Shown here piece after piece: positions 441 to 19,263 of a DNA stretch of 64,000 nt. Each line of letters starts with the position of its first letter. Within the stretch, counting starts at the first letter, position 1. Location of the stretch: contig NZ_JAENRR010000019.1 in assembly GCF_016612505.1 (NCBI RefSeq), forward strand, positions 1 to 64,000, read 5' to 3'. A program made the position numbers and the translations under genes. Under the pieces are notes generated by a model. It was not told the DNA's origin. It ran no database searches and saw nothing but the letters and a program-made list of their open reading frames with translations. The DNA comes from Carboxylicivirga marina. Its GTDB lineage: Bacteria > Bacteroidota > Bacteroidia > Bacteroidales > Marinilabiliaceae.

Positions 441-1781
441 ATGGAAGCTAAGATGAAGGAATTCATGGACAGCGTTAGAGTTAAGAACCCTGGCGAAGAC
501 GAATTTTTGCAAGCAGTGCAAGAAGTAGTAGAAACAGTTTGGGATTTCTATCAGGAGAACCCTCACTATAAAAAAGCTAAGATACTGGAACGTATGACTG
601 AACCTGAAAGGGTAATTATGTTCCGTGTGCCTTGGGTTGATGATAGTGGCGAGGTTCAGGTAAACCGTGGTTTCCGCGTTGAGTTTAACTCAGCTATCGG
701 ACCTTATAAAGGCGGTTTGCGTTTCCACCCTAGTGTAACACTAAGTGGTCTTAAGTTTTTAGGATTTGAGCAGACATTTAAAAACAGCTTAACAACCCTT
801 CCGATGGGTGGTGGTAAAGGTGGTTCTGACTTCAATCCAAAAGGAAAATCAGATAACGAAATTATGCGTTTCTGTCAAGCTTTCATGAGCGAGTTATTCC
901 GCCATATTGGACCTAATACTGATGTGCCTGCTGGTGATATTGGTGTTGGTGGCCGCGAAATTGGATACCTGTTCGGTCAGTATAAGAAACTTCGTAACGA
1001 GTTTACAGGTGTATTAACTGGTAAGGGTGCTGAATTTGGTGGTTCATTAATTCGCCCTGAGGCAACTGGTTTTGGTACTATCTATTTCGTACGTGAAATG
1101 TTAGCTACTAAAGGCGAAACAATGGATGGCAAGACTGTATCAGTTTCAGGTTTCGGTAACGTAGCATGGGGAGCTGCTTTAAAAGCTGTTGAGTACGGTG
1201 CTAAAGTGGTAACTATCTCTGGTCCTGATGGGTATATTTACGATCCGGAAGGCATTTCAGGTGATAAGATTGATTACATGTTAGAGTTACGTGCTTCTAA
1301 CCAGGATATCGTTTCACCATATGCTGAGCGTTATCCGGAAGCTACATTCTACGCAGGTAAAAAACCTTGGGAGCAGAAAGTAGATATTGCTATTCCTTGT
1401 GCCATTCAAAATGAGTTGAATGAGGAAGATGCAAAAACTTTGATTGCAAGTGGTTGTCAGGTGATTGCTGAAGCATCTAATATGGGATGTACGGCTGAAG
1501 CGGCCTATTTAGCAACTGATAAAATTGCCTTTGCACCAGGTAAAGCAGTTAATGCTGGTGGTGTAGCTGTATCAGGTTTAGAAATGACTCAAAACAGCAT
1601 GCGTTTAAACTGGACTGAAAAAGAAGTAGACGATCGTCTGGATCAAATCATGACCAGCATTCACAATGCATGTGTTAAATATGGAACTGAGCCAAACGGC
1701 AAAGTAAATTACATCAAAGGAGCTAATATTGGCGGTTTCGTGAAAGTGGCCGATGCAATGATTGCTCAAGGTGTTGTTTAA
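441..1781 (+). CDS. gdhA: NADP-type glutamate dehydrogenase (first copy)
   Basis: This 446-residue cytoplasmic enzyme should interconvert 2-oxoglutarate plus ammonium and glutamate, with NADPH expected from the hexameric small-subunit family (about 450 residues). The substrate domain shows GPYKGGLRFHP at about 87-97, the catalytic lysine in PMGGGKGG (K126) and the catalytic aspartate in PAGDIGVGG (D166). The dinucleotide fold has GFGNVA at 237-242. The ATG at 441 gives the usual N-terminus. The gene is followed by a strong terminator and looks monocistronic. It is one of three GDH paralogues in the window. Its cofactor loop (SGPDGYI) differs from the SDSSGYI loop of the copy at 7708-9060, so cofactor preference may differ between the two; that is inference. 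Confidence 0.95.
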   Translation: MEAKMKEFMDSVRVKNPGEDEFLQAVQEVVETVWDFYQENPHYKKAKILERMTEPERVIMFRVPWVDDSGEVQVNRGFRVEFNSAIGPYKGGLRFHPSVTLSGLKFLGFEQTFKNSLTTLPMGGGKGGSDFNPKGKSDNEIMRFCQAFMSELFRHIGPNTDVPAGDIGVGGREIGYLFGQYKKLRNEFTGVLTGKGAEFGGSLIRPEATGFGTIYFVREMLATKGETMDGKTVSVSGFGNVAWGAALKAVEYGAKVVTISGPDGYIYDPEGISGDKIDYMLELRASNQDIVSPYAERYPEATFYAGKKPWEQKVDIAIPCAIQNELNEEDAKTLIASGCQVIAEASNMGCTAEAAYLATDKIAFAPGKAVNAGGVAVSGLEMTQNSMRLNWTEKEVDDRLDQIMTSIHNACVKYGTEPNGKVNYIKGANIGGFVKVADAMIAQGVV

Positions 1782-3893: not shown

Positions 3894-3922
3894 TTTGTAA
3901 TTGACTTTTTTTTTGTAATTTG
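3894..3922 (+). promoter_or_regulatory. probable promoter of the exbB-exbD operon
   Basis: TTTG at 3894-3897 is followed after 18 bases by TAATTTGC at 3916-3923. The -7 element is one base shorter than TAnnTTTG but otherwise fits. The leader to the ATG at 4048 is long (about 120 bases). The rest of the interval after the asparaginase gene holds no gene. Confidence 0.5.
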
Positions 3923-4047
3923 CAACCCTGAAAAATTAAAGGGTTTGAACCTTTTTTGATACTTGATATTAAGGAAAGAAAAGGGGACAACATTAAACTA
4001 TTTTGAGTATTAACAATACTAATACAAATCAAAATTTTTAGCAGACT

Positions 4048-4860: not shown

Positions 4861-4868
4861 TTGTCATT

Positions 4869-5315: not shown

Positions 5316-5360
5316 TGGCCCGGCTCCTGCATTGTTAGGAGCCAATAAATTTAATTATCT

Positions 5361-5936
5361 ATGGGTAAAAGAGAAGTACAAGAAGTTAATGCAGGGTCAA
5401 TGGCAGATATTGCTTTCTTGTTACTTATCTTCTTCTTGGTAACCACTACCATGGATACTGATACTGGTTTAGCAACACTTCTTCCACCTCCGGTAGAAGA
5501 AGAACCTGAAGATACACCGCCTGTTAAAGAGCGTAACGTATTTACAGTGCTAATTAATAGTCAGAATCAGTTGTTGGTTGAAGGTAAACCGATGGAGATA
5601 AGGGACCTAACAGAAGCAGTGAAAGAATTTATCGTTAATCCAATGGACGACGAGAACTTACCTGAAAAGAATGTCAGGGAAGTAGAATTCTTTGGTACTG
5701 TGGAAATTGGAAAGGGCATCATATCGCTTCAAAACGACCGTGATACAGAATATCAGACTTACTTAATGGTTCAGAACGAGATGTCGAGAGCTATTAATGA
5801 ACTGAGAGAGGATTTGTCCAAAAGGAAATTTGGTAAGTCTTATGATGAGTTAGAAAAGGAAGAGCAAAAAGCTGTTCGTACAATCTATCCACGTAAGATT
5901 TCTGAGGCAGAACCTAAAAATATAGGAGGAAACTAG
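5361..5936 (+). CDS. exbD: ExbD/TolR family biopolymer transport protein (first)
   Basis: A 191-residue ExbD/TolR-type protein with one membrane helix at about 14-32. The aspartate D16 in SMADIAFLLLIFFL fits the proton-relay residue of the family. The periplasmic part is longer than in classical ExbD (about 140 residues) and contains a charged segment (about 130-180). It ends one base before the next ExbD gene begins, so the two are tightly coupled. It should pair with the ExbB encoded upstream. Confidence 0.9.
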   Translation: MGKREVQEVNAGSMADIAFLLLIFFLVTTTMDTDTGLATLLPPPVEEEPEDTPPVKERNVFTVLINSQNQLLVEGKPMEIRDLTEAVKEFIVNPMDDENLPEKNVREVEFFGTVEIGKGIISLQNDRDTEYQTYLMVQNEMSRAINELREDLSKRKFGKSYDELEKEEQKAVRTIYPRKISEAEPKNIGGN

Positions 5937-5937
5937 C

Positions 5938-6411
5938 ATGGCAAAGTTCAGAAAAAAGAAGAGCGGAGGCCAACAAGCTATTAACACGGCCTCATTACCA
6001 GATATCGTTTTTATGTTGCTTTTCTTCTTTATGGTATCTACTACTATGAAGGAGGTTGACTTAAACGTTATTGTTAAGCCAGCACAAGCAACTGAATTGG
6101 TAAAGCTTGAGAAAAAAGAGTTGGTGACATTTATTTATGTAGGTGTTCCGGCTAAAAAGTATCAATCTTTATACGGTAGCGAACCACGAATTCAGTTAAA
6201 CGATCAGTTTTCAACGGTTGCCGATATTCAAAGTTACATTGCACAATCGCGTGATAACATGAGTGAAGCAAACCAGTCAAAAATGATTGTTTCAATCAAA
6301 GCTGATAAAGAATGCCCAATGGGTATCATTACTGATATCAAGCAGGCATTACGTAAGGCTGCAGCTCTGAAGCTTAATTATTCAGCTGCTGAAATGGTTG
6401 CAGACAGATAA
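5938..6411 (+). CDS. exbD: ExbD/TolR family biopolymer transport protein (second)
   Basis: A 157-residue ExbD/TolR paralogue. A basic N-terminus (KFRKKKSGG) precedes one membrane helix at about 20-36 containing D22 in LPDIVFMLLFFFMV. The periplasmic domain follows. It starts 1 base after the previous exbD stop and is preceded by AGGAGG, a strong ribosome-binding site for this phylum. It is the last gene of the operon and is followed by a terminator. Two different ExbDs per ExbB suggest a heteromeric stator. Confidence 0.9.
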   Translation: MAKFRKKKSGGQQAINTASLPDIVFMLLFFFMVSTTMKEVDLNVIVKPAQATELVKLEKKELVTFIYVGVPAKKYQSLYGSEPRIQLNDQFSTVADIQSYIAQSRDNMSEANQSKMIVSIKADKECPMGIITDIKQALRKAAALKLNYSAAEMVADR

Positions 6412-6433
6412 TTCATTTGAATTGAAATATAAG

Positions 6434-6467
6434 AAAAAGGGAAGTCGAAAGGCTTCCCTTTTTTTTT
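6434..6467 (+). terminator. Rho-independent terminator of the exbB-exbD operon
   Basis: GGGAAG and CTTCCC form a stem extended by A/T pairs, followed by a run of eight T. It lies 23 bases after the last exbD stop. Confidence 0.85.
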
Positions 6468-6588
6468 GTTTGGCATAAACGGTATGCTCTGTTTGCTCTG
6501 TAACTCATGTCAACTTCGATAGTTTGCCAAGTTCTGTTCGATGGTTTATTGAACCTCCTTAGTTCCTCCTTCGTACAATGTTCGGCAT

Positions 6589-6638
6589 AACCTCGCTCCC
6601 AGCGAGGTTGATGCGTACCAGATACGACCATGGTATCT
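6589..6638. repeat. pair of intergenic hairpins
   Basis: A perfect 9-bp inverted repeat with a 3-base loop (AACCTCGCT at 6589-6597, AGCGAGGTT at 6601-6609) is followed by a second one (AGATAC at 6620-6625, GTATCT at 6633-6638). No T-run follows, so this is not a plain terminator. It resembles dispersed palindromic (REP-like) elements, but copy number cannot be seen in this window. Confidence 0.5.
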
Positions 6639-6675
6639 AACAGGGGCGATTAATAAACGAATAAAAACTAATTCA

Positions 6676-7203
6676 TTAGCGAGTACTTGATTTTGAATAT
6701 TTTTCTTCCCAATAGGGTTTAAATCGCTCAATAATAAAGTGCTTCCAAACATTTTCTATTACTTCGGGCCATTCTTCTTTGAATTCGCCGGCACCATGTA
6801 CTTCTACTTTTAAATGTGTTGAATCATTGACTGTGGATAGGTGGTAAGTTGTGACCAAAGTAAGGGCATGACCCGCTAACCCCAATGGTCCTTCCATCCG
6901 AAGAAGTTTACCCCTGTGGGCTCCTGTTACCACAGCGTGACGAACGCCGTCACCCGATTCATCGAAAATCTCATAAAACCCACCACCAGGTTTGGCCTCA
7001 ATGTATAATTGATGCGGTTGACCCGAAAATGTATGATCCCACCAGGGGCTGATATCACCAGTCAGCTTATCGTAAACAAGTTCTGGTTTTCCGGGTAGTG
7101 TTGTTTCAATGGAAAATGAGAAGGATTGACTATGACTGTGTTGTATTAATTAGTTTTGACAAGAAAGAATCGCCAGGAAAGAAATTAGAATCAAATATTT
7201 CAT
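6676..7203 (-). pseudogene. lipoprotein-type SRPBCC-like protein gene broken by an in-frame stop
   Basis: Read on the minus strand, the frame starts at ATG 7203 with a lipoprotein signal ending in the lipobox ILSC (C15). It then meets a TAA at codon 18 (7152-7150) and continues open to 6676. The downstream part (about 158 codons) resembles a START/SRPBCC ligand-binding or AHSA1-like domain, with SPWWDHTF, EAKPGGGFYEIF and a C-terminal helix containing WPEVIENVWKHF. The frame is intact apart from this single stop, so it is either a recent nonsense mutation or a sequencing error. No ATG lies between the stop and the domain, so a shorter functional start is unlikely. The family call is by eye. 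Confidence 0.65.
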
Positions 7204-7333
7204 AGACTACATTTTAAAATAACGAGAGTTAGATGTGAAAAATTAGTCTAATTGGCTGAATGTCAATTTTAAGACACTCTAATACAACGCATTAGGCAAT
7301 AATACATCTTACAATCCTTCGCCTTGAAGAGGC

Positions 7334-7428
7334 AGTTTAAAATTAAACTGGGCTTACAGCCCGTTCTATACATCAAATAGCTTAACCAATGCGTTGCATT
7401 GGGCTTTTATATACTGCACTTTCAGTGC
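7334..7428. repeat. cluster of four palindromes (REP-like)
   Basis: Four short perfect inverted repeats occur in 95 bases. They are AGTTTAA/TTAAACT (7334-7349), GGGCT/AGCCC (7350-7362), CCAATGC/GCATTGG (7386-7402) and GCACT/AGTGC (7416-7428). Three have 3-base loops and the first has a 2-base loop. No coding potential is seen. The form fits a mobile palindromic element of the REP type known in Bacteroidota, but no partner transposase is in the window. Confidence 0.5.
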
Positions 7429-7460
7429 GACAATTAAATCGAACTCCGGTTAAAATATAT

Positions 7461-7493
7461 AAAACGCCCGATAAACCAGTTTGTTTATCGGGC
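7461..7493 (-). terminator. terminator for the second gdhA (minus strand)
   Basis: A perfect 11-bp stem (GCCCGATAAAC at 7466-7476 with GTTTATCGGGC at 7483-7493) is followed on the minus strand by a short T run. It lies about 215 bases after the gdhA stop, which places the minisatellite inside the transcript's 3' end. Confidence 0.6.
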
Positions 7494-7535
7494 ATTGTTA
7501 TTCATTATTTTACCCAGGATTCGAAGTGACAAATT

Positions 7536-7703
7536 AAGGAGTTAATATTCCCTTTTAAGGAGTACTTCTCCTCATCTAAGGCACCAATTTCCCTAGTTAA
7601 GGAGTGCTTCGTCCCATTTAAGGAGCTGATTTTCCCAACCAAGGAGTGCATCATCCCGTTTAAGGGGTGGATTTTCCTGGCCAAGGAATGGACTTACCCT
7701 GTT
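7536..7703. repeat. minisatellite, 8 units of exactly 21 bp
   Basis: The motif AAGG recurs at 7536, 7557, 7578, 7599, 7620, 7641, 7662 and 7683, an exact 21-base period. Two unit types partly alternate: AAGGAGTGCTTCGTCCC-like and AAGGAGCTGATTTTCCC-like. The period is a multiple of three, and several frames stay open across the array. On the minus strand a 49-codon frame (7654 to 7505, ATG start) carries leucine at every seventh position. No ribosome-binding site precedes it, so it is recorded as a repeat and not as a gene. Confidence 0.85.
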
Positions 7704-7707
7704 ATAT

Positions 7708-9060
7708 TTATACAGCACCTTGAGCCATCATAGCATCTGCTACTTTAACAAAACCTCCAATGTTGGCCCCATCCACGTAATTAATAAAACCATTCTCTTT
7801 GGTTCCGTATTGGCAACAGGTGGAGTGAATGCTTTGCATGATGCTTTGTAGTCGTTGATCGATCTCTTCTCGTGTCCAGTGAAGGCGCATACTATTTTGC
7901 GTCATCTCCAAACCCGATACGGCTACACCACCGGCATTGGCAGCTTTGCCCGGTCCAAATAAGATGCCTTTTTCAATAAATATCTGAATGGCTTCAGGTG
8001 TTGATGGCATATTAGCACCTTCCGAAACGCACATGCATCCATTGCCAACCAATGTGATGGCTTCTGTTTCGTTAATTTCATTTTGTGTAGCACTCGGTAG
8101 AGCAATATCTGCTTTTTCAGTCCATGGGCGTTCACCTTCTACATATTTGCAGCCATATTTATCAGCATATTCTTTAATGCGACCACGTTTGTTATTCTTC
8201 AGGTGCATCACATATTTTAATTTTTCATCATCGATGCCATCAGCATCAAATATATAACCACTTGAATCGGATAAAGTCACTACTTTTCCTCCCAGGTTGT
8301 TTACTTTTTCTACAGTAAATTGTGCGACATTGCCAGAGCCCGAAACCAGTACAGTTTTGCCCTTCAAACTCTCACCTCTGGTTTTTAGCATTTCCTGGGC
8401 AAAATACACATTGCCATATCCAGTTGCTTCGGGGCGAATAAGGCTGCCGCCCCATTTAAGTCCTTTCCCGGTAAGCACTCCTGTAAACTCATTAACAATA
8501 CGTTTGTACTGGCCATACATAAAGCCTATTTCGCGTCCCCCAACGCCGATGTCACCTGCTGGTACATCAGTATTTGGTCCAATATGTCGATATAGCTCCG
8601 TCATAAAACTCTGGCAGAAGCGCATGACTTCATTGTCCGACTTGCCCTTCGGATCAAAATCACTACCGCCTTTACCACCACCCATTGGTAAGGTTGTCAG
8701 GCTGTTTTTGAATACCTGCTCAAAGGCCAGAAACTTAAGAATGCCCAGATTAACAGTGGGATGAAAACGCAAGCCGCCCTTGTATGGACCAATAGCACTA
8801 TTCATTTCGATGCGAAAGCCTCGGTTAACTTGCATTTCGCCTTTGTCATTCACCCATGGAACGCGGAACATAATGATGCGCTCAGGTTCCACGATGCGTT
8901 CGAGTATACGCGCATGTTTGTATTTGGGGTTTTCATCTAAAAAGTGGTCAAGCGATTCAACCACTTCGTGAACGGCCTGATGGAATTCAGGTTCGGCCGG
9001 ATTCTTCGCCATCAACTCAGCCATAAATGCTGAGATGCCTAATGATGAAGTGTGTGACAT
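7708..9060 (-). CDS. gdhA: NADP-type glutamate dehydrogenase (second copy)
   Basis: A 450-residue GDH with every family hallmark: GPYKGGLRFHP at about 91-101, the catalytic lysine K130 in PMGGGKGG, the catalytic aspartate D170 in PAGDIGVGG, and a GSGNVA dinucleotide motif. The loop SDSSGYI after the second strand matches the pattern of the NADPH-specific E. coli enzyme, so this copy is the better candidate for the biosynthetic enzyme. It is transcribed divergently from the receiver/ATP-binding operon, with 263 bases between the two starts. It is closely similar to the copy at 441-1781 and far more conserved than the copy at 16634-17971. Confidence 0.95.
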   Translation of the reverse strand: MSHTSSLGISAFMAELMAKNPAEPEFHQAVHEVVESLDHFLDENPKYKHARILERIVEPERIIMFRVPWVNDKGEMQVNRGFRIEMNSAIGPYKGGLRFHPTVNLGILKFLAFEQVFKNSLTTLPMGGGKGGSDFDPKGKSDNEVMRFCQSFMTELYRHIGPNTDVPAGDIGVGGREIGFMYGQYKRIVNEFTGVLTGKGLKWGGSLIRPEATGYGNVYFAQEMLKTRGESLKGKTVLVSGSGNVAQFTVEKVNNLGGKVVTLSDSSGYIFDADGIDDEKLKYVMHLKNNKRGRIKEYADKYGCKYVEGERPWTEKADIALPSATQNEINETEAITLVGNGCMCVSEGANMPSTPEAIQIFIEKGILFGPGKAANAGGVAVSGLEMTQNSMRLHWTREEIDQRLQSIMQSIHSTCCQYGTKENGFINYVDGANIGGFVKVADAMMAQGAV

Positions 9061-9114
9061 AGTTACTGCATTTAAAGGGTTATTAATAAAGTGATATTAA
9101 CATTCGATGTTATT

Positions 9115-9122
9115 CAAATATA
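9115..9122 (-). promoter_or_regulatory. probable -7 promoter box for the second gdhA
   Basis: On the minus strand this reads TATATTTG, a full match to TAnnTTTG, 54 bases before the ATG. No perfect TTTG is seen 19-21 bases further upstream. The shared 263-base divergent region is otherwise featureless to the eye. Confidence 0.5.
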
Positions 9123-9323
9123 TGCTCCCTCTTTGCATGTTTTCTGTCAATAAATCAGGATTGGATATGGTTGCTTTTTCACGATAAAAGTTAAGAAATT
9201 TATTATCCAAACGCGATGATAAAGGCTGATAAAACCTGAATTTATTTTATTTCTAATCAGGTCGATATACAAGCACTTGAATTTCTTTTTCCGTAACTTA
9301 TAGCAATTGATGACCTCATAATC

Positions 9324-12300
9324 ATGTCAATAAATCGTCAACAAATAGGAACTTCAGAAACTGGTTCTCAACGAGTATTGAAAACTCTTGAGCAAATTAG
9401 TGAGATTATTCAGGCGGAGAATGATATCAAACATACATTAGAAGATGTCACTGCAAGCCTTATTAATGGATTCAAATATAAGGATGCAGAAGCACGAATC
9501 CGTTATAGAGAAATGGAGTTTACAAGTAGCAATTTTATGGCATCTCAGTACGGACTGACTGAACGTTTCGCAACAATTGATGGTGAGAAAGGTGTGATAG
9601 ACGTGATTTATAGAGAACAGCACCATGATTGGGATGAAGGCCCTTTTTCACGCGATGAACGCGCATTATTGAATCAACTGGCACGGCTTCTTTCAGGTTA
9701 TATTAATCGAATTGTGGCCGAGCGTAATCATTCTGAATCAATTGAGCGACTGAAGGAACTTTCCACCATTAATCGGACAACCCGAATAATTAACGAAGGT
9801 AAATCGGTTGACGATGTATTACAACAAATCGTTTTCACCTTGCCACTGGGCTGGCAATATCCAGAGTATACAGTTGCGCGCATATCTTATCGTTCAAAAG
9901 ACTATCGCAGTGACCAGTTTATAGAAACGGAGTGGGTTCAAACACAACGCTTTCAAACAAGTGATGGAGAGCTAGGTGCCATCGACGTGTTTTATATCAA
10001 AGAATTTCCATCGCTTGGTGGCGATCCATTTCTAATTGAAGAACGTGATCTGCTTATAAACTTATCGCGTTTGATAAGTGATTTTATAAATAGCCTGATT
10101 GCTGTTAAAGAAAAAAATGAGCGTCAGGAACGTGAAAAAGAACTACATGCCATCAATGAAACATCGCGCATTATAGCGCTGAATATGCCGATTAATTATA
10201 CCCTGGAACACATTGCACAGAAAATACCACTGGGAATGCAGCATCCCGATTATTCGGTGGCCCGCATAACATTTCATAAGCTTGAGTATTTAAGTAGTGG
10301 TTTTGTTGAAACGCCCTGGCTATTACGGCATCAGTTTGAAACCATCAATGGTGAAAAAGGGATGATTGAAATATATTACCTCAAAGAACTGGCTAAGACA
10401 CAAGAGGAGCTATTCTTGAACGAGGAAAATGATTTGATTAAGAATTTGTGTAATCTTATTGTTGGTTACCTAAATGGAGTGGCGGCACGAAACCTGATGG
10501 AGAAAGTTAGGCGCTCATCACGACAGGGTACCTATAAATCACAATCAATTGATAAACCAGAGAGTATACACAGCAAGCATTTGCTCCAAAACTTCATGCA
10601 TCGAAATAATGCGGTTCGCGATATTTATCACGATTTAATGCCTTTTCGGGTGAAAGAAATATTGCTTGTAGCCACATTATATGATGCTTATGCCATCGAA
10701 AATGAGGGGCGATTCACTGAACAGGTAATGGGAGGGTTTTACCAGTTGCACCTTTCTGAATTGCCGAGAGTTACAGGTGTTACTACTTATAAGGAGGCTA
10801 TTGCCAAACTGAATGAAAAGCATTTTGATTTGATAATCGTGATGGTGGGTGTAGAGAAACAATCTCCTATTGATTTGAGTCAGATGGTGAAAAAGGAGTT
10901 TCCTTATATCCCCATTTTTATGTTGCTTAATAACGATGCTGATATACCTTTTTTTGAAGCACGTCAGCGCGAATTAGGTGTATTGGATGAAATTTTTGTG
11001 TGGAATGGTGACCCAAAAGTATTTTCATCCATGGTGTTTCATCTCGAAGATAAGGTCAATGTTGAGAATGATACAGAAATAGGACTGGCACGTGTGATAT
11101 TGCTCGTAGAGGATTCAGTCCGATATTATTCAAAGTACTTACCGCTTTTATATTCAAGTGTGCTGGAGCAAACCAAACGTTTGATTGAGGATGTAAAGGA
11201 AGATGAATTATATGCCGTGCTTCGGCTTAAAGCGCGACCTAAAATATTACTGGCGCAAAACTATGAGGAGGCTCAGGAACTCTTCGAGAAGTACAAGGAA
11301 TACCTCTTGTGTTTAATATCTGATGTGGAGTTTTCAAAAGGTGGTAGGCTGGATGCCAATGCGGGTTTTGACCTGGTTAACTATGTGAAAACACAAATAA
11401 AGGATTTACCGGTAATACTGCAATCGTCAAAAATTGAATATTCGCAAGATGCTTATGAGCTTAAAACAGTATTTATCAACAAGTATTCCGAGAGTTTAAT
11501 ACAGGATATTAAAACCTTTATCAGACATTACCTGGGATTTGGCAATTTTGCGTATAAGGATGCCAATGGTCGTACTATTGCTGTAGCAAGAAATCTTAAG
11601 GAGTTTGAACGAACAATGCGTAAGGTACCTGTTGAATCCATTGTTTATCATGCACGTAAAAACCATTTCTCCCTGTGGCTGATGGCTCGTGGAGAAATAA
11701 AAATAGCCCGTCAAATTGCACCTGTTCGCATCACTGATTTTGAAGAGGCAGAATTAATACGCTCTTATCTTTTAGAGGTTATTACGCGTCACCGTGAGGA
11801 GAAGAATCAAGGAAAGGTAATCGATTTTGATGAGCTCGATACTGTCGAAGAAACTAATATTGTGAGCTTATCTGGTGGCTCATTAGGTGGTAAAGGACGC
11901 GGCTTATCGTTTATTAATACTTTGCTCTTTAATTTTGATTTTGAGGCGCACGTGCCAGGCATTAATATTCGTGCACCACGGACGACAGTAATAGGTACCG
12001 ATGAGTTTGAACTGTTTATGGAACGTAATGATTTTAGAGAACTCATTTTCCGTAACCTTACCTATCATCAGATTAAGAAAATGTTTTTAGCTGGTGACTT
12101 ATCTTTTTCACTAATTCAACGCCTCAAGCGCTTGTTGTCTATTTTTACCACACCAATTGCTGTGCGTTCATCGGGCTTATTGGAAGATAGTCAGAAACAA
12201 CCATTTGCCGGTGTGTTTGAAACATATCTCTTACCCAATAATGCCGATTCAATAGATGAACGATTAAACGAATTATGCAATGCTGTTAAGCTGGTGTTTG

Positions 12301-13538
12301 CATCAGTGTTCAGTGATACAGCTAAAGCTTTTACGGAGGCAGTTGATTTTAAAATAGAAGAGGAAAAGATGGCTGTTGTGATTCAGGAGGCAGTTGGTAA
12401 GCCGTTTGGTAAAGTGTTTTACCCACACATTAGTGGTGTGGCTCAATCCTATAATTACTATTCCTTCAGCCATATGAACCCCGAGGATGGTTTCGCGGTG
12501 TTGGCTCTTGGTTTTGGTAAATACGTAGTGGATGGAGAGAAGGCTTTGCGGTTTTGTCCGATTTATCCTGATTTGGATAATAACTCGGCTAAAGATCAAT
12601 TGAAGAATTCACAAACAGAGTTTTATGCGATTGATCTAAATATCAAAGATCTCAACCTTTTGGAAGGTGAAATGGCAGGATTAGTCCGACTTGACATTGA
12701 TGATGCTGAGATGCATGGAGCCTTAGGACATCTGGCATCGGTGTATAACCCCGACAACAATACCATTGAGGCTGGAATAGCCACGGCCGGTCCCAGAGTT
12801 CTTAACTTTGCCAATATTTTAAAGTACAATTATATACCTCTGGCACGCGCTATTGCGGTGGTGCTTGATGTAGTTAAAGAGGCGATGGGAACTCCTGTTG
12901 AAATTGAGTTTGCTGTAGATTTATCAAAAGACAGCCAGCGAAGAGCAACTTTCTACTTGCTGCAGATAAAACCGTTAATGGGAGGTGAGCAAAACTACAG
13001 TATCAATATGGATAGGGTGAATGAAGAAGAAATCATCCTTCAATCATCTCAAAGCATGGGAAATGGCAAAAACAAAACCATTACTGATATTATATATGTT
13101 GATGTCGATGCCTTTGATAAGTCAAAAACCAGAGATATGACTCTGGAGATTGAGAGTCTTAATGCAAAAATGAAAAAGGAAAAGCGCTTCTATGTTCTTA
13201 TTGGTCCGGGCCGGTGGGGAACCCGTGATCCTTTTATTGGTATTCCGGTTTCCTGGTCGCAAATATCAAATGCCAAGGTGATTGTAGAAACTGATATGAA
13301 TCATTTTCCACTGGAGGCTTCAGGTGGTTCGCACTTCTTTCATAATGTTACAACCATGCAGGTTGGCTACTGTTCAGTGGTAGATGGCGACAAGGAATCA
13401 TTTATTAAATGGGACAAGTTGACAAAAGGAAAAGAGATTGAAAAAACAACTTACTTCAGGCATGTTCGCTTTGATAAAGCTCTCGTTATCCGTCTTGATG
13501 GCAAAAAAAGAAAAGCAATTGTTACTTTAGAGAACTAA
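9324..13538 (+). CDS. GAF-like repeats - pseudo-receiver - receiver - PEP synthase ATP-binding domain protein
   Basis: A 1,404-residue soluble multidomain protein. Residues about 20-130, 147-258 and 275-385 are three copies of one sensor-like module (the last two share PEYTVARI/PDYSVARI; all share a DGE.G or NGEKG core), probably GAF-like. A receiver-like domain at about 443-570 has methionine (M507) where the phospho-aspartate belongs. A second receiver at about 590-735 has the acidic pair in LLVEDS, D667 in LISDVEF, and K720. The C-terminal half has the ATP-binding fold of PEP synthase/PPDK: GGSLGGKGRGL at 851-861 and PIAVRSSGLLEDS (R948). The swivelling phospho-histidine and PEP/pyruvate barrel domains are absent, so it cannot be a complete PEP synthase. 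It is first in an operon with a shorter paralogue and a GDH-like gene. Confidence 0.8.
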   Translation: MSINRQQIGTSETGSQRVLKTLEQISEIIQAENDIKHTLEDVTASLINGFKYKDAEARIRYREMEFTSSNFMASQYGLTERFATIDGEKGVIDVIYREQHHDWDEGPFSRDERALLNQLARLLSGYINRIVAERNHSESIERLKELSTINRTTRIINEGKSVDDVLQQIVFTLPLGWQYPEYTVARISYRSKDYRSDQFIETEWVQTQRFQTSDGELGAIDVFYIKEFPSLGGDPFLIEERDLLINLSRLISDFINSLIAVKEKNERQEREKELHAINETSRIIALNMPINYTLEHIAQKIPLGMQHPDYSVARITFHKLEYLSSGFVETPWLLRHQFETINGEKGMIEIYYLKELAKTQEELFLNEENDLIKNLCNLIVGYLNGVAARNLMEKVRRSSRQGTYKSQSIDKPESIHSKHLLQNFMHRNNAVRDIYHDLMPFRVKEILLVATLYDAYAIENEGRFTEQVMGGFYQLHLSELPRVTGVTTYKEAIAKLNEKHFDLIIVMVGVEKQSPIDLSQMVKKEFPYIPIFMLLNNDADIPFFEARQRELGVLDEIFVWNGDPKVFSSMVFHLEDKVNVENDTEIGLARVILLVEDSVRYYSKYLPLLYSSVLEQTKRLIEDVKEDELYAVLRLKARPKILLAQNYEEAQELFEKYKEYLLCLISDVEFSKGGRLDANAGFDLVNYVKTQIKDLPVILQSSKIEYSQDAYELKTVFINKYSESLIQDIKTFIRHYLGFGNFAYKDANGRTIAVARNLKEFERTMRKVPVESIVYHARKNHFSLWLMARGEIKIARQIAPVRITDFEEAELIRSYLLEVITRHREEKNQGKVIDFDELDTVEETNIVSLSGGSLGGKGRGLSFINTLLFNFDFEAHVPGINIRAPRTTVIGTDEFELFMERNDFRELIFRNLTYHQIKKMFLAGDLSFSLIQRLKRLLSIFTTPIAVRSSGLLEDSQKQPFAGVFETYLLPNNADSIDERLNELCNAVKLVFASVFSDTAKAFTEAVDFKIEEEKMAVVIQEAVGKPFGKVFYPHISGVAQSYNYYSFSHMNPEDGFAVLALGFGKYVVDGEKALRFCPIYPDLDNNSAKDQLKNSQTEFYAIDLNIKDLNLLEGEMAGLVRLDIDDAEMHGALGHLASVYNPDNNTIEAGIATAGPRVLNFANILKYNYIPLARAIAVVLDVVKEAMGTPVEIEFAVDLSKDSQRRATFYLLQIKPLMGGEQNYSINMDRVNEEEIILQSSQSMGNGKNKTITDIIYVDVDAFDKSKTRDMTLEIESLNAKMKKEKRFYVLIGPGRWGTRDPFIGIPVSWSQISNAKVIVETDMNHFPLEASGGSHFFHNVTTMQVGYCSVVDGDKESFIKWDKLTKGKEIEKTTYFRHVRFDKALVIRLDGKKRKAIVTLEN

Positions 13539-13599
13539 TTTATTCAAAACCTTACGTGCAGTAAGATGTTTTGAACTTGTAGTAAATAGTTACGAATCT

Positions 13600-16500
13600 A
13601 TGACGAAACTAACAAATATACAGCAAACCAATTATTTCTCTGAAACACCTTTTGGTCACCTGATGCAAAAGCGTATTCATAAAGTACTATTGATTTGTAG
13701 TGGTTATGATGCTTTTATGCTTGATGAAGATGGGCGCATCGATGAGCAGATTTTTAATGAGTATGTATCATTAAACCTGCGTTATCCGCCTCAGTTTATC
13801 CATGTTGAAACATCAGAAGAAGCTTTGCAAGTGCTCGGATATGAGCAGATTGATTTGGTGATTACCATGCTAAGTATCGGAGGTATGGATCCATTCTCAA
13901 TGGCTAAAAGAGTGAAGGAATCATATGGTGAAACACCAATTGTTGTATTAACGCCATTTTCACGTGAGGTATCGGTGCGTATGAGTCGCGAAGATACGAG
14001 TGCCATTGATTATGTATTTTGCTGGTTAGGCAACGCCGATATTATGCTCGCCATTATTAAGCTCATTGAAGATGAGATGAACGTGGAACACGATGTTGAA
14101 GAAGTGGGTGTGCAAACTATCTTACTGGTAGAAGATTCTGTTCGTTTCTATTCAAGTTATTTGCCATTGATCTATCGTATCATTCTTAAGCAGGCCAAGA
14201 AATTTATGGATGAAGGCCTGAATGAGCATCAAAAGATGATGCGAATGCGCGGACGTCCTAAGATTTTATTGGCACGTACCTATGAAGAGGCTGTTGAATT
14301 GTACGAGAAATATGAGGAGAATCTTTTGGGTATTATTTCGGATGTATCCTACAATAAAGATGGGGTGAAAGATACCGAAGCAGGCATTAAACTGGCCAGG
14401 CACGTCAAGGGACGGAACAAATACATGCCTTTCTTATTGCAATCGTCCAACCGTAGTCTGGAGCCCGTAGCTAAGGAATTAAAAGTAGCTTTTTTGTTTA
14501 AACATTCATCATCACTGTTACGGCGATTAAAGCATTTTATTAATAAATACCTGGCATTTGGGGACTTTGTTTTTGTCGATCCTAAAAGTGGCCAGGAAGT
14601 AGGACGGGTAAGTAACTTAAAGGAACTGCAAGAGAAGTTATTTCAAATACCAGATGAATCGCTTTTTTATCACTTTCAGCGCGATCATGTGTCCAAATGG
14701 CTAAATGCCAGAGCCCTGTTTGCAGTGGCCGAGGTCATAAAATATTTGAAAGTTGAGGATTTCAAGGACTTGGAAGCCACCAAGCGGTTTTTATTTGATA
14801 CAATTGCTAATTTCCGATATAGTAAGGCTCGTGGTATTATTGCCAAGTTTTATCGCGAAAAATTTGATGAATACCTCACTTTTACGCGTATTGGCGAAGG
14901 TACAATTGGTGGTAAGGCACGAGGATTGGCATTTTTGAATCTGCTCATTAAAAAGTACAATGCTTTTCATTCGATAGATAATGTGGTTGTGACCATCCCA
15001 CGTACGGTGGTTTTAAGTACTGATGTGTTTGATGAGTTTATGGAGGTAAATGAATTGTATCCATTGGCTTTGTCAGAAGTTTCAGATGAAGAAATATTGG
15101 ATGTCTTCGTTAAGGCTCACTTACCGGAGCGTATTCATGGTGATTTATTTAAGTTTATATCTATTGCCAAGGGACCTATTGCTGTTCGTTCGTCCAGTGT
15201 ATTAGAGGATAGTCACTACCAGCCATTTGCAGGCATTTACTCGACCTACATGATTGCCAATAGTGGCGAGGAAAATATTGTGCTTGAGCAATTGAGTAAC
15301 GCCATTAAGTGTGTATACGCGTCAGCTTTTTATAATTCGAGCAAGCGATACATGGAAGCTACCATGAATGTGATTGATGAAGAGCGTATGGGTATTGTTT
15401 TACAGGAAGTGGTGGGACAAGAGCACGATGGTGTTTTTTATCCAACGATATCGGGTGTTGGGCGTTCAGTTAATTTTTACCCCATAGAGCCTGAGAAAGC
15501 AGAAGATGGAACTGTAAATGTGGCCATGGGGCTCGGAAAACATATTGTTGAAGGTAGTGCATCATTGCGATTTTCTCCAAAGTATCCGCAGAAGATCCTG
15601 CAGCTATCAAGTACTGATATGGCAGTTCGTGAAACACAAAAGAATTTCTTTGCACTCGATTTAAAGTCGTCAAGTTTTGTGCCTTCAGTGAATGACTCCA
15701 TTAATATTATGAAACTGGATTTGAAAACGGCCGAGCAACACGGTACTCTTCGTTGGCTAGGTTCGGTATATGACTATAATAATCACATGATTCGTGATGG
15801 CTTAATGGCTAAAGGCCTGCGACTTGTCACCTTTGCGAATGTGTTAAAATACGATGCATTTCCTTTGGCTCCTATTATTGAAAAGGTGCTGGAGATTGGG
15901 CAGAAAGAGATGAATCAACCGGTAGAGGTGGAGTTTGCAGTTGATTTGCAGGTGCCGAAAGGTGAACCACCAGTGTTTTATCTGCTGCAAATACGTCCGA
16001 TTGTAGATTCCAAAGAGTCAATTGTCGAGAAGTTGGAAGAGATTAAACCAGAAGAAACATTAGTTCATTCAAAGTCTGCTTTAGGTAATGGTGTTATCGA
16101 CGATGTTGAGGATGTGATTTATATTAAAACCAGTACATTTAATCCCGCCAATAACACCAAGCTTGTGCCAATTATTGAACAATTAAATGCGCCGTTTCAT
16201 ACCAATGATAAGTCTTATATTTTAATAGGTCCTGGCAGATGGGGCTCGCAGGATTCGTGGTTAGGTGTACCTGTTAAATGGACCCAAATATCAGCTGCTC
16301 GCCTAATTGTTGAAATGGGGCTCGAAAACTATCGTGTTGATCCAAGTCAGGGAACGCATTTTTTTCAAAACTTAACCAGTTTAAGAGTTGGGTATTTTAC
16401 AGTAACACCATCCATCGGAGATGGTTATGTTGATATGGATTACCTGGATAGCTTGCCGGCTGTATATGAAGATGAGTTCGTTCGCCATGTTAAATTACCG

Positions 16501-16611
16501 GTACAGTCAAGTGTTAAAATAGATGGGCAAAAAGGGATTGGAGTGGTGATGTCTTCGGATAAAGTAAGCAATGCGTCCGGTGATGATGATTCAGATTTTA
16601 ATCTGCATTAA
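13600..16611 (+). CDS. pseudo-receiver - receiver - PEP synthase ATP-binding domain protein
   Basis: A 1,003-residue paralogue of the preceding protein without the three N-terminal sensor modules. The first receiver-like domain (about 27-160) has M90 in place of the phospho-aspartate. The second (about 172-315) looks competent, with LLVEDS at 175-180, D248 in IISDVSY and K301. The PEP synthase/PPDK-type ATP-binding domain begins at GTIGGKARGL (434-443) and includes PIAVRSSSVLEDS (R530). A conserved tail holds GPGRWGS, also present in the paralogue. No phospho-histidine swivel domain is present. It starts 61 bases after its neighbour and ends 22 bases before the divergent GDH gene, so the three are probably one operon. 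A regulatory phosphotransfer role is inferred. Confidence 0.8.
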   Translation: MTKLTNIQQTNYFSETPFGHLMQKRIHKVLLICSGYDAFMLDEDGRIDEQIFNEYVSLNLRYPPQFIHVETSEEALQVLGYEQIDLVITMLSIGGMDPFSMAKRVKESYGETPIVVLTPFSREVSVRMSREDTSAIDYVFCWLGNADIMLAIIKLIEDEMNVEHDVEEVGVQTILLVEDSVRFYSSYLPLIYRIILKQAKKFMDEGLNEHQKMMRMRGRPKILLARTYEEAVELYEKYEENLLGIISDVSYNKDGVKDTEAGIKLARHVKGRNKYMPFLLQSSNRSLEPVAKELKVAFLFKHSSSLLRRLKHFINKYLAFGDFVFVDPKSGQEVGRVSNLKELQEKLFQIPDESLFYHFQRDHVSKWLNARALFAVAEVIKYLKVEDFKDLEATKRFLFDTIANFRYSKARGIIAKFYREKFDEYLTFTRIGEGTIGGKARGLAFLNLLIKKYNAFHSIDNVVVTIPRTVVLSTDVFDEFMEVNELYPLALSEVSDEEILDVFVKAHLPERIHGDLFKFISIAKGPIAVRSSSVLEDSHYQPFAGIYSTYMIANSGEENIVLEQLSNAIKCVYASAFYNSSKRYMEATMNVIDEERMGIVLQEVVGQEHDGVFYPTISGVGRSVNFYPIEPEKAEDGTVNVAMGLGKHIVEGSASLRFSPKYPQKILQLSSTDMAVRETQKNFFALDLKSSSFVPSVNDSINIMKLDLKTAEQHGTLRWLGSVYDYNNHMIRDGLMAKGLRLVTFANVLKYDAFPLAPIIEKVLEIGQKEMNQPVEVEFAVDLQVPKGEPPVFYLLQIRPIVDSKESIVEKLEEIKPEETLVHSKSALGNGVIDDVEDVIYIKTSTFNPANNTKLVPIIEQLNAPFHTNDKSYILIGPGRWGSQDSWLGVPVKWTQISAARLIVEMGLENYRVDPSQGTHFFQNLTSLRVGYFTVTPSIGDGYVDMDYLDSLPAVYEDEFVRHVKLPVQSSVKIDGQKGIGVVMSSDKVSNASGDDDSDFNLH

Positions 16612-16633
16612 TTAACCTGAAAAACAGAACGCT

Positions 16634-17971
16634 ATGAATATCGAAAAATTCCTTTTAGAATTAGAAAAAAGCAATTTAAGCGAACCTGAATTTACGCAGA
16701 ATGTTAGGGTGTTTTTAGCTTCTGTTCAAAATTATATATGTGATGATTTCAGGTTAGACAGTGCGGCGGTCATTGCACGCCTGTGCGAGCCCGATAAAGT
16801 CTTTATGTTTAAGGTGCCATGGATCAATGATGAAGGGAAAGTGATTGTTAGCCGTGGTTATCGTGTGCAATATAACAATGCATTAGGACCGTATAAAGGT
16901 GGACTTCGTTTTCACCCGGGAATAACCTTAGGAACAATTAAAATGTTAGCATTTGAGCAGGTGTTCAAAAACAGCTTGTCTTCATTACCATTGGGAGGTG
17001 CTATGGGAGGTGCTAATTTTGATCCTAAAGGAAAATCGGACGCAGAGGTGATGCGTTTTTGTCAAAGTTATATGCTGCAGCTATGGGATTTGCTTGGTGA
17101 TGATGTGGATATTCTAGGTGGTGATGTGGGAGTTGGTAGTCGCGAAATTGGCTATCTGTTTGGTATGTACAAAAAGCTTAGTCATCAGCACAATGGCACT
17201 TTTACAGGTAAAGCACCGTATTGGGGTGGAACGCGTTTAAAAGGCGAATCTAATGGGTATGGTGTGGTGTACTATTTAAAGTCGCTATTAAAAAGACACA
17301 ATGATAGCCTGGATGGAAAAAGGATTGCTGTTTCCGGATTTGGCAATTTGGCTTATGGAGTTATAAAAAAAGCAACAGCATTAGGTGCAAAAGTTATTTC
17401 CATCTCTGGTCCTGATGGGTATATACACGATCCGGATGGCATCAACGGGGATAAATTAGAGTATCTTTTAGAATTACGTGCTACCTCACAGGATTTGGTT
17501 CGTCCATTCTCAATGGAATTTCCGGGAACAATGTATTATGAAGGAAAGAAACCGTGGGAGCTTGAATGTGATATAGCCATTCCATGTGCTATTCAAAACG
17601 AAATTGATTCAACAGAAGTGCAGCAGTTGCTCAAGACTAAATGTATGTACATGATTGAAGGAGCCGATCAGGCATGCACTGCTGATGCTGTACAGGAGAT
17701 ATATAATAGCGATCTGGTTTATGTGCCGAGCAAGGCAGCAAATGTTGGAAGTGTGGCCATCTCAAGCCTTGAACTGGCACAGAACAATATGAAAGTATAT
17801 TGGTCGGATTCAGAAATTGAAACGCGACTGCAAGATATTATGGAGCGAACCTATAATCTGTGCCGTAAGTATGGGCAAGACCAAAAGGGTAAAGTAAATT
17901 ATTTACAAGGCGCTAATATTGCCTCTTTTAACCGGGTGGTTGAAGCAATGATTGATCAAGGGGTGGTATAA
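16634..17971 (+). CDS. glutamate dehydrogenase-like protein lacking the catalytic lysine
   Basis: A 445-residue member of the GDH family, full length but divergent. It keeps GPYKGGLRFHP (about 85-95), K112 in FKNSL, the catalytic-site aspartate (D164 in LGGDVGVG) and the GFGNLA dinucleotide motif (235-240). The catalytic lysine of PMGGGKGG is replaced: here the segment reads PLGGAMGG, with M124 at that place (codon ATG at 17003-17005). The RPEATG segment of active copies is LKGESNG, and NAGGVAVSG is NVGSVAISS. Loss of this lysine abolishes normal activity in studied GDHs, so a changed reaction or a regulatory, ligand-sensing role is likely. It is the third gene of the receiver/ATP-binding operon. 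Confidence 0.85.
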   Translation: MNIEKFLLELEKSNLSEPEFTQNVRVFLASVQNYICDDFRLDSAAVIARLCEPDKVFMFKVPWINDEGKVIVSRGYRVQYNNALGPYKGGLRFHPGITLGTIKMLAFEQVFKNSLSSLPLGGAMGGANFDPKGKSDAEVMRFCQSYMLQLWDLLGDDVDILGGDVGVGSREIGYLFGMYKKLSHQHNGTFTGKAPYWGGTRLKGESNGYGVVYYLKSLLKRHNDSLDGKRIAVSGFGNLAYGVIKKATALGAKVISISGPDGYIHDPDGINGDKLEYLLELRATSQDLVRPFSMEFPGTMYYEGKKPWELECDIAIPCAIQNEIDSTEVQQLLKTKCMYMIEGADQACTADAVQEIYNSDLVYVPSKAANVGSVAISSLELAQNNMKVYWSDSEIETRLQDIMERTYNLCRKYGQDQKGKVNYLQGANIASFNRVVEAMIDQGVV

Positions 17972-17972
17972 A

Positions 17973-17998
17973 AAAAGACCAACATGCGTCGGTCTTTT
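17973..17998. terminator. bidirectional terminator between convergent genes
   Basis: AAAAGACC and GGTCTTTT form an 8-bp stem around a 10-base loop, with A and T runs on the two sides. It can serve both the GDH-like gene and the minus-strand gene ending at 18019. Confidence 0.6.
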
Positions 17999-18018
17999 AA
18001 TAATGGTTTGTACATCTT

Positions 18019-18495
18019 TTATTCACTCTTTGTAGGCACAATTAATGGCATGCCTTCGTGCAATGAAGCCGAAATATGCGTATAGATATAAGCGTCTATT
18101 TGATAAAACTGGGCTGCAACCTTAATGCTTAGCTGTTTTTTTAGCGTTTTATAATATTTGTAACGAAGACTAATTCTTTTCTTGTTAATCTTGACCCCTA
18201 GTTTTACTTTGTCATCCAGCTCATCTTCTGTGAGTTCGCCGCCTTTTTCAATTAATGATTTTAGAAAATCAATACGCTGATTACTTAAGGGCTTAAGCTC
18301 ATTTTCATATTCATCATAAATAGACCAGAATGTCTCTGCTTCACTAGTTGATAATTCCATATTTTGAGCAAAGAAGACCTTTACCTCTGATTTTAAGATG
18401 GAGCCTATCAATCCAATTTCCTGATCCGTAGCTTGAGCTGACGAGTTTAAAAATACACCTATGCACAAGGCTGTAGCAAATAAAAACTTTTTCAT
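18019..18495 (-). CDS. secreted helical protein of unknown function
   Basis: A 158-residue protein with a clear signal peptide (cleavage near NSSAQA, about residue 22). The rest is predicted all-helical and charged, with motifs such as LSTSEAETFWSIYDEYE (about 48-64) and LTEDELDD. The pattern recalls periplasmic Spy/CpxP-like small helical proteins, but no diagnostic motif is certain, so no function is assigned. It is transcribed towards the GDH-like gene, with a shared terminator between them, and is divergent from the lipoprotein gene at 18643. Confidence 0.75.
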   Translation of the reverse strand: MKKFLFATALCIGVFLNSSAQATDQEIGLIGSILKSEVKVFFAQNMELSTSEAETFWSIYDEYENELKPLSNQRIDFLKSLIEKGGELTEDELDDKVKLGVKINKKRISLRYKYYKTLKKQLSIKVAAQFYQIDAYIYTHISASLHEGMPLIVPTKSE

Positions 18496-18556
18496 AGTTT
18501 AATGTTAATTGATAAATTAGATTCGTATTTCAAACAATAAAGCTAAATGATTGTTT

Positions 18557-18564
18557 TATATTTG
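18557..18564 (+). promoter_or_regulatory. probable -7 box for the DUF4136-like/barrel gene pair
   Basis: TATATTTG is a full match to TAnnTTTG and lies 78 bases before the ATG at 18643. No convincing TTTG is placed 19-21 bases upstream. Confidence 0.45.
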
Positions 18565-18642
18565 AATTATAAATGAAGCGTTTTATTGATAATAGCTCGT
18601 CTGTGAACGAGTTATTTATTTTTAACCCCTAATTAAATACTT

Positions 18643-19263
18643 ATGAAAACAAAAGTGAGTTACTTAATCGCTATTGGTCTGCTTACCATAATGTATTCCT
18701 GCTACCCTGGAGGAGCAGAATACGTTGATGAATTGGATACCTCCATATCGAAGTACAGTCCTGATTATTTTGATGAACCATTGACAGGTAAATATTACTA
18801 TCTGCCCGATGAGATATTGCATATTAAAGATGGGGAAGAAGTAGAAGATCCTGATCGTACACATGACGATGCCATACTGGCACAGGTAAATCAGCATTTA
18901 CTTGATCTTGGAATGCAGGAGGCTGTTGCAGGTATAGATACTTCTATAGCCATCGCTATTTCGGCCATTGAGCAAAATAATTCAGGAGCAGCCTGGATTC
19001 CCGGTGGTGGATGGTGGGGCGGTTGGTATCCATGGTATCCCGGATGGGGATGGGGTGGATATTATCCTTGGTATCCTGTTTACTATAACTACAAAACAGG
19101 TAGTGTTCTAATTGAAATGGCAGATTATGAGTTAAAAGAAACCGAAGAGCCTCCTTTGATTTATTTTGGTGCTCTTGATGGTTTGTTGCAAGGTAGTGAT
19201 GCCTATATAGGAGATCGACTTGAGAGAGGAATAGATGAATTATTCAGTCAAGCTCCCTTTTAA
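18643..19263 (+). CDS. DUF4136-like lipoprotein with Trp/Tyr/Pro/Gly-rich tract
   Basis: A 206-residue lipoprotein with signal and lipobox ending MYSC (C20). The body resembles Bacteroidota DUF4136-type proteins: an N-terminal segment ending in a 'directed' hydrophobic strand, then a C-terminal RLERGIDELFSQAPF segment typical of the family's last helix. Between them, residues 118-150 form a low-complexity tract containing 8 tryptophans and 8 tyrosines. The function is unknown; it is exported and probably anchored in a membrane. The gene lies 31 bases upstream of a small barrel gene and shares its promoter. Confidence 0.75.
   Translation: MKTKVSYLIAIGLLTIMYSCYPGGAEYVDELDTSISKYSPDYFDEPLTGKYYYLPDEILHIKDGEEVEDPDRTHDDAILAQVNQHLLDLGMQEAVAGIDTSIAIAISAIEQNNSGAAWIPGGGWWGGWYPWYPGWGWGGYYPWYPVYYNYKTGSVLIEMADYELKETEEPPLIYFGALDGLLQGSDAYIGDRLERGIDELFSQAPF

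Follow-up and report, generated by a model that had tools for sequence, protein, structure and literature searches.

The window, meaning the whole 64,000-nucleotide stretch of the Carboxylicivirga marina contig that was analysed, contains three open reading frames (ORFs) arranged head to tail on the forward strand: P1 (9324..13538, 1404 aa), P2 (13600..16611, 1003 aa) and P3 (16634..17971, 445 aa). The intergenic gaps are 61 bp between P1 and P2 and 22 bp between P2 and P3, and the ORF coordinates agree with the three-gene arrangement given in a preliminary description of this DNA. An intact glutamate dehydrogenase (GDH) of 450 aa, GDHA (7708..9060, reverse strand), is divergent from P1, as that description had also stated, and is NADP-specific by NCBIfam (PRK09414, E 2.5e-231, over the cut-off). 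The third GDH of the window, GDH1 (441..1781, forward strand), is absent from the earlier description and is intact, as judged from the ORF and its residues, with the loop GGGKGG. The arrangement of the locus is not due to chance, because gene order and residues are preserved in full-length homologues across genera.

P1 and P2 share a pseudo-receiver, a receiver, a PPDK_N ATP-grasp domain and a C-terminal domain with a conserved histidine. At its N-terminus, P1 is extended by three repeats, each about 110-140 aa long (9378..10472, forward strand; aa 19-127, 141-277 and 268-383). The repeats appear GAF-like by eye only, and Pfam does not call them GAF at E<=1. All three are matched by the N-terminus of a protein of locus L067; a nucleotidyltransferase partner of the L067 kind was not found in the genome of C. 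marina, where the P1 repeats are the sole match.

The receivers are recognised by the Pfam Response_reg family under the curated cut-off in P1 (9.3e-5) and P2 (2.2e-5), and above it in the Spirochaete locus L216. The presence of receiver domains had been proposed before, and it stands for the second receiver (REC2) of each protein, which has the full residue set, whereas the first (REC1) lacks the phospho-Asp in both and is a pseudo-receiver. In P2, REC1 occupies approximately 13672..14103 and REC2 approximately 14110..14604 of the forward strand. Among the 38 aligned rows with residues there, Asp is missing from REC1 at aligned positions 89 and 90. The acidic pair, phospho-Asp, Ser/Thr and Lys of REC2 (E178, D179, D248, S282 and K301 in P2) are each found in 38/38 rows with a residue. 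The whole-protein AF2 model of P2 has a pLDDT of 84 and a pTM of 0.78, and the receiver part is matched in Foldseek by PleD and PorX. PleD contains tandem receivers, one of which is degenerate. The outputs of PleD and PorX are GGDEF or PglZ domains, from which the ATP-grasp domain of P1 and P2 differs.

The fusion of receivers to the ATP-binding domain of PPDK and PEP synthase is confirmed by Pfam and by the residues. PPDK_N is matched with E 1.8e-38 in P1 (11880..12992) and 1.1e-38 in P2 (14902..16053), both on the forward strand. The K/R/E/Q residues common to PEP synthase and PPDK, which are K439, R530, E778 and Q797 in P2, were mapped by alignment to PEP synthase and from PPDK numbering, and are invariant in 46/46 rows. 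Their invariance suggests that P1 and P2 bind ATP. The ATP-grasp profile aligns poorly with PPDK in hhalign; its best relatives are rifampin phosphotransferase, HpeI and PEP synthase, and the fold is matched by 5hv1 (E 1.6e-12) and 9goj (E 3.3e-9) in Foldseek. Unlike PEP synthase and PPDK, P1 and P2 lack the swivel PF00391 and the PEP barrel PF02896, and neither domain was found in P1, P2 or P3 at E<=1, in keeping with the earlier claim. The sole PF00391 match in the genome is a true PPDK encoded elsewhere (C155), so there is no swivel partner in trans.

P1 and P2 both end in a domain of about 170 residues with an invariant His. In P1 it lies approximately at 12999..13523 of the forward strand (GPGRWG...SHFF), with a homologous stretch in locus L002. 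In P2 it lies at 16021..16569 of the same strand, is modelled with a pLDDT of 91, and carries His920 (codon 16357-16359), which is present in 46/46 rows and which the model puts at the beginning of a helix flanked by two strands. The domain was not recognised among PDB sequences, its 54 members scanned gave no convincing match in Pfam, and its model has no Foldseek match at E<=0.001. Its position and invariant His resemble those of the swivel PF00391, but homology was not detected. Against PPDK swivels, hhalign returned E 0.3 and left the histidines out of register (a weak test, PPDK-dominated and of low diversity), and the C-terminal portion of the P2 profile scored an insignificant -2.8 bits in HMMER against a stretch of rifampin phosphotransferase. 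An assignment as a PF00391 swivel, suggested by eye from the motif, is unsupported by profile-profile, Pfam, PDB and Foldseek comparisons. That the domain is not a recognisable swivel able to act as phosphate acceptor counts against control of GDH by these proteins. As a conserved domain unrecognised in the libraries used, it is part of the value of the operon.

These features bear on the alternative that P1 and P2 are metabolic small-molecule dikinases of the PEP-synthase or rifampin-phosphotransferase type. The ATP-grasp domain would phosphorylate the His of the C-terminal domain, taken as a very diverged swivel, and the phosphate would go on to a metabolite from the breakdown of glutamate or amino acids; GDH would then be linked through its pathway, and the receivers would serve for control. 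The invariant ATP-grasp residues, the nearest relatives of this domain, the location of the C-terminal domain after it, as with the swivel of PEP synthase, and the helix-start position of the invariant His are all in favour. In the rifampin phosphotransferase and HpeHI dikinases, as described in passages of PMC12167813, the ATP-grasp fold, which in HpeI is alone on its chain, is accompanied by a GGXXXH swivel and a substrate domain, either in cis or in HpeH. P1 and P2 show no recognisable swivel or substrate domain and carry receivers ahead of the ATP-grasp domain. The out-of-register His, the failure of Pfam and Foldseek to match the C-terminal domain, the missing PEP barrel and the want of a separate swivel protein in the genome count against the dikinase alternative, which is unlikely.

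P2-type genes are repeatedly found near GDH genes. For the 43 P2 orthologues of the own family (>=60% identity), a GDH lies within 6 kb in 27 and within 11 kb in 31; one more is 20 kb away from a GDH, and the contigs of the other 11 yielded none, two of the genomes concerned having no GDH match. In other families of the phylum, a GDH adjoins the P2-type gene in 16/20 fetched regions and is absent from the remaining 4/20. Across the order, a listed GDH lies no more than 5 kb away in at least 31/107 places (>=44% identity), against about 0.4% expected. The order-wide linkage is far from universal, which counts against GDH control, as do the four regions without a GDH and the third P1/P2 paralogue encoded elsewhere in the same genome (C142), which has no adjoining GDH (locus L084). 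Eight Spirochaete loci were retrieved by their GDH; in all of them a P2-type gene points away from it divergently, and in four one ORF separates the two genes. A second GDH type (30-35% identity) is also adjoined by PPDK_N genes (loci L266, L270, L278, L279 and L281). The pairing that is wide and conserved, in both Bacteroidota and Spirochaetota, is that of a P2-type gene with an intact GDH. The three-gene order, for which a search across Bacteroidota had been suggested earlier, was observed in the own family only.

P3 is full length and contains both ELFV_dehydrog domains by Pfam, but Met124 (codon 17003-17005) replaces the catalytic Lys, as had been noticed before, and Asp164 is kept. Its loop reads GGAMGG and holds no substitute Lys, in contrast to the GG(G/K)KGG-type loop, with Lys, of two PDB GDHs, GDH1 and GDHA. 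A tblastn survey found the catalytic Lys in 173/185 distinct GDH stretches and Met in all the other 12. Within the P3 clade, 11/11 genes have Met and keep the Asp, and each is the next GDH behind P2; P3-type GDHs do not, then, mostly occur apart from P1/P2-type genes. The loss of the Lys suggests that P3 is non-catalytic. P3 is under purifying selection, with a dN/dS of 0.019 against 0.017 for P2 in the same, single unsaturated close pair. In the tree, the sister of P3 is a P2-linked GDH of another family (support 100/96, one sister sequence), and a smaller tree, read unrooted, has the same split (92/95). An origin of P3 as a recent copy of GDH1 is unsupported by this grouping.

A second Lys-to-Met lineage belongs to another family and comprises G191 and G325 (locus L193). 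These GDHs are 73% identical to each other and therefore are not the sequence error of one genome. Neither has a P2-type gene in the fetched stretch, and the genome of G191 has one on another contig. Of the Lys-to-Met GDHs, whose co-occurrence with the operon genes had been proposed as a check, those of the P3 clade lie behind P2, and these two do not adjoin a P2-type gene, which counts against GDH control. The tie of the Lys-to-Met change to the operon is weaker for it, and the change itself is more likely a functional state.

P3 is accessory: it is present in 5/9 genomes of the genus, and P1 and P2 occur without it in the other four, which counts against GDH control. Compared within the same genomes, P3 shows 62-75% identity and GDH1 88-93%, P3 being the less conserved of the two. 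Both observations would suit a drifting duplicate, with the genes mere neighbours in a nitrogen-metabolism region. The low dN/dS (one pair), the fixed Met of the clade and a P2-GDH linkage that recurs in two phyla and several arrangements argue against this and make it improbable. The least probable alternative, that P3 is an amino-acid dehydrogenase with altered substrate or chemistry and not a pseudoenzyme, would fit the second Lys-to-Met lineage, as changed instead of absent activity, and the retention of the aligned K113, D165 and S380 in 7/7 and K89 in 6/7 sequences, which we take to be GDH substrate-site residues, but it is opposed by the loss, with no other Lys in the loop, of a residue so widely kept in the GDHs surveyed and in two solved relatives.

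The preferred reading, to which we give a probability of about one half, is that P1 and P2 act on GDH as ATP-grasp proteins gated by their receivers, and that P3 is a GDH subunit without catalytic function, of the kind seen in Thermus. It is favoured because of the repeated P2-GDH linkage, the invariant residues, the selection on P3, its P2-linked sister and the Thermus precedent. In passages of PMC9570180, the catalytically inactive homologue of the Thermus thermophilus GdhA/GdhB pair is a regulatory subunit of a hetero-hexamer, the inactive subunit serving for leucine, and an inactive homologue of a nucleotide-binding enzyme is proposed as the nucleotide (AMP) sensor of the active GDH. That sensor is an APRT homologue, whereas the neighbours here are receiver/ATP-grasp fusions, and any complex with a GDH is a prediction.

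In the preferred reading, REC2 would be phosphorylated by a histidine kinase signal, which would open or close the ATP-grasp domain with its presumed ATP. The ATP-grasp domain might then hand phosphate on, by way of the C-terminal His domain, to a GDH or a ligand; alternatively, P1 and P2 might report the adenylate state by direct binding to GDH. P3 would mix into GDH hexamers or dock P2, so that the active GDH1 and GDHA respond to the signal. The anatomy, the residue states, the selection on P3 and the recurrent P2-GDH linkage are observed; physical binding, phosphotransfer, the direction of the effect and the control of flux are all what we infer from these parts. A narrower version, a receiver-gated PEP-synthase-type phosphotransferase that phosphorylates GDH through the C-terminal His domain, with the pseudo-GDH docking or sensing in one lineage, is rather doubtful; if true, it would be a two-component output not previously described and a control of GDH spread over Bacteroidota and Spirochaetota. 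The regulatory, GDH-linked character proposed in the preliminary description is retained, with its regulatory look, its tie to GDH and a P3 that is non-catalytic by residue; the sensing of pyruvate is without support.

A search of the open-licence PMC literature for the P1/P2 family, its connection with GDH and pseudo-GDHs gave no publication dealing with the family, and the passages of PMC10364804 concern SelO neighbourhoods. The operon points to an undescribed control of nitrogen metabolism. GDH is a meeting point of carbon and nitrogen metabolism, and GDH control, if true, would assign a role to a family easily mistaken for PEP synthase through its ATP-grasp domain and would provide a testable signal path from histidine kinase to GDH in two phyla. 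A natural experiment is offered by near relatives that have or lack the pseudo-GDH, and by a second Lys-to-Met lineage outside such an operon.

The receiver/ATP-grasp genes P1 (1404 residues) and P2 (1003 residues) and the glutamate dehydrogenase (GDH)-like gene P3 (445 residues) were read from their ORFs as lying head to tail on the forward strand (9324-17971), with the intact GDH gene GDHA (7708-9060) divergent from them. A third, likewise intact GDH is encoded by GDH1 (441-1781), so that an 18-kb part of the window holds the three GDH genes GDH1, GDHA and P3. The closest named relatives of P3 and GDHA belong to Carboxylicivirga and other Marinilabiliaceae. The interval between GDH1 and GDHA (1922-6411) holds ORFs that look, by eye, like a nuclease of the TatD type, an asparaginase, one ExbB-like and two ExbD-like proteins; in several genomes of the family, ORFs matching these in size are found again in the stretch from GDH1 to P2. 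A scan of 9000-18700 returned eight terminator sites versus 6.6 in shuffled sequences, hence no excess, and 24 promoter-like sites, fewer than the 30.5 of the shuffles, so that neither count bears on transcription.

P2-like receiver/ATP-grasp proteins (P2-type, paralogues included) are encoded in 58 of the 60 Marinilabiliaceae genomes and 130 of the 149 Bacteroidales genomes (E<=1e-100), as well as in 20 of the 118 Bacteroidota genomes (E<=1e-30). Of the 43 P2 orthologues in the family, 11 have a GDH no more than 2 kb away, a number that rises to 27 for 6 kb and to 31 for 11 kb. For the 107 P2 places in the order, at least 25 are within 1 kb and at least 31 within 5 kb of a listed GDH, about 0.4% being expected by chance, and at least 36 share a contig with one. 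The 43 lower-identity places of the order are mostly P1-like and include a fragment and the third P1/P2 paralogue of C. marina; at least 13 are within 5 kb of a GDH and at least 16 on the same contig. This third paralogue (993 residues; contig 142, positions 9078-12059 of fetched locus L084) has no adjoining GDH. Many other Bacteroidales loci in the named GDH set have no nearby P2-type gene, some owing to contig ends.

The pair extends to other families of the phylum, where 16 of the 20 genomes with a match supplied 20 regions (G051 and G070 were left out). A GDH is found beside the P2-type gene in 16 of these regions, with one intervening ORF in L267; none was found in L262, L272, L275 and L280 by an ORF-based count, which could miss a GDH. 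Genome G107 (locus L083), retrieved apart from these 20 regions, shows the order GDHA-P2-GDH1. In L278 and L279 a second GDH type (30-35% identity) adjoins a 580-residue receiver-less PPDK_N protein and another of 1063 residues. The GDH cluster of L268 includes a 1060-residue PPDK_N protein (4808-7987) ending in a nucleotidyltransferase domain, which we take to be GlnD/GlnE-like. In the Spirochaetes the P2-type gene is divergent from GDH in all eight loci; these were collected by a GDH query, and the linkage is hence seen from the GDH side.

P3 is an accessory gene. Its clade is represented in seven of the 60 family genomes, C. marina counted, and in five of nine Carboxylicivirga genomes; P1 and P2 are present in all nine, on two contigs in G319. 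No P3-clade gene outside Marinilabiliaceae appears among the matches listed for the 149 order genomes. That the GDH-like gene mostly occurs apart from the other two, which the preliminary description named as a refutation, is contradicted by the named loci: in each of the 10, P2 comes before P3 with both on one strand, and P1 precedes P2 in nine, the exception being L184, whose contig starts at P2. The P2-P3 gap is 11-185 bp in nine loci and 793 bp, with a 148-residue ORF, in L190; in L182, P1 is split into two pieces.

The loss of the catalytic lysine, claimed in the preliminary description, is borne out throughout the clade. Methionine replaces it in 7/7 members of a first set and in 10/10 of the named loci (L182-L191), that is, in all 11 genes once the sets are pooled and overlaps removed. 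Searching the complete set of 312 fetched loci by tblastn, with one stretch counted per distinct 90-residue core, gave 185 GDH stretches: 172 with the catalytic Lys and Asp, one with Lys and Glu, and 12 with Met and Asp. The last comprise 10 of the P3 clade (one core is common to two genes) and those of G191 and G325. All 12 rows of P3 (11 genes) group as a single clade (100/100) in the larger tree, sister to the G262 gene (100/96). Purifying selection acts on P3: dN/dS between C. mesophila and C. sediminis is 0.019 (0.017 for P2 in the same pair); another P3 pair gives 0.114 at dS 1.9, and the remaining pairs are too saturated to yield a value. The sole Lys and Glu stretch is the P2-linked GDH of G262 (L078:7883-9220), in which the catalytic Asp is replaced and Lys retained; the two other GDHs of this genome keep Asp. 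This replacement may be a further way in which a GDH next to P2 is weakened.

The Met GDHs of G191 (L291:15359-16702) and G325 (L193:10001-11335) come from another Bacteroidales family and share 73% identity; four relatives from the same family retain Lys (L295-L298). No P2-type gene lies near either within the roughly 20 kb fetched, and the P2-type gene of G191 is on a different contig from its Met GDH. Since the G191 gene is separate from the P3 clade in a smaller tree, the Lys-to-Met replacement probably arose at least twice.

Pfam matches PPDK_N in both P1 and P2 and neither PF00391 nor PF02896 at E<=1, in agreement with the proposal of a PPDK/PEP-synthase ATP-binding domain devoid of phospho-histidine swivel and PEP barrel. 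In a 46-row alignment, from which the ATP-grasp and receiver residues were counted, K439, R530, E778 and Q797 are invariant; these are presumably the counterparts of the PEP-synthase K, R, E and Q, a matching that rests in part on an alignment to PEP synthase. The receivers described for both large proteins hold in part: REC2, the second of the tandem, keeps E178, D179, D248, S282 and K301 in 38/38 rows (the remaining eight have no residue there), and REC1, the first, lacks an Asp at the phosphorylation position. DUF5752 matches the linker ahead of the ATP-grasp in P1 (residues 755-828, 11586-11807; E 4.1e-6) and P2 (E 0.012). The P1 N-terminus consists of three repeats, shared with a small nucleotidyltransferase-domain protein encoded between P1 and P2 in L067 (7197-8045). 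The AlphaFold2 model of P2 (mean pLDDT 84, pTM 0.78) has rifampin phosphotransferase, HpeI, PPDK and PleD as top Foldseek matches.

C-terminal to the ATP-grasp, where PEP synthase carries its swivel, P1 and P2 hold a domain of about 170 residues with the signature GR.G, D, S.G.HFF, Y, invariant in 54 rows (G72, R73, G75, D78, S109, G111, H113, F114, F115 and Y125 of the C-terminal fragment). It is best described as a conserved, unrecognised domain: the 54 members gave nothing convincing in Pfam (best E 0.016), PDB sequences gave no match (best E 0.038), and the fragment model (pLDDT 91, pTM 0.90) had no Foldseek match at E<=0.001 (best 0.014). Profile comparison with swivels detected no homology. 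In the P2 model the His starts a helix between two strands, and the domain is a candidate phosphate acceptor.

The recurrence of the P2-type/GDH pair suggests that the receiver/ATP-grasp protein concerns GDH, and the anatomy of P1 and P2 points to a phosphorylation signal that would enter at REC2, with a module that uses or binds ATP as its readout; P2 could be either kinase or sensor. A study of Thermus GDH (PMC9570180) reports that an inactive GDH can serve as regulatory subunit and proposes a nucleotide-binding enzyme homologue as AMP sensor. Recurring pair, anatomy and precedent together favor regulation of GDH by P1 and P2 with P3 as non-catalytic subunit, to which, the mechanism being inferred, we give a probability of about one half. 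The nucleotidyltransferase proteins of L268 and L067 may possibly exert a second covalent control of GDH. The families of most parts and regulatory GDH subunits are already known; the combination of receiver/ATP-grasp proteins with GDH and pseudo-GDH was not found in the open-licence literature searched and, to that extent, is new. The linkage over two phyla, the fixed pseudo-GDH and the unrecognised domain would be unexpected to workers in the field and lend themselves to direct testing.

Elsewhere in the window, which lies on contig 110 of the 5.65-Mb genome, two neighbouring genes (29068-30418; 214 and 191 residues) are superoxide dismutase-like by eye. An open frame exceeding 6100 codons (45619-64000) leaves the window at its end and probably encodes a giant surface protein.
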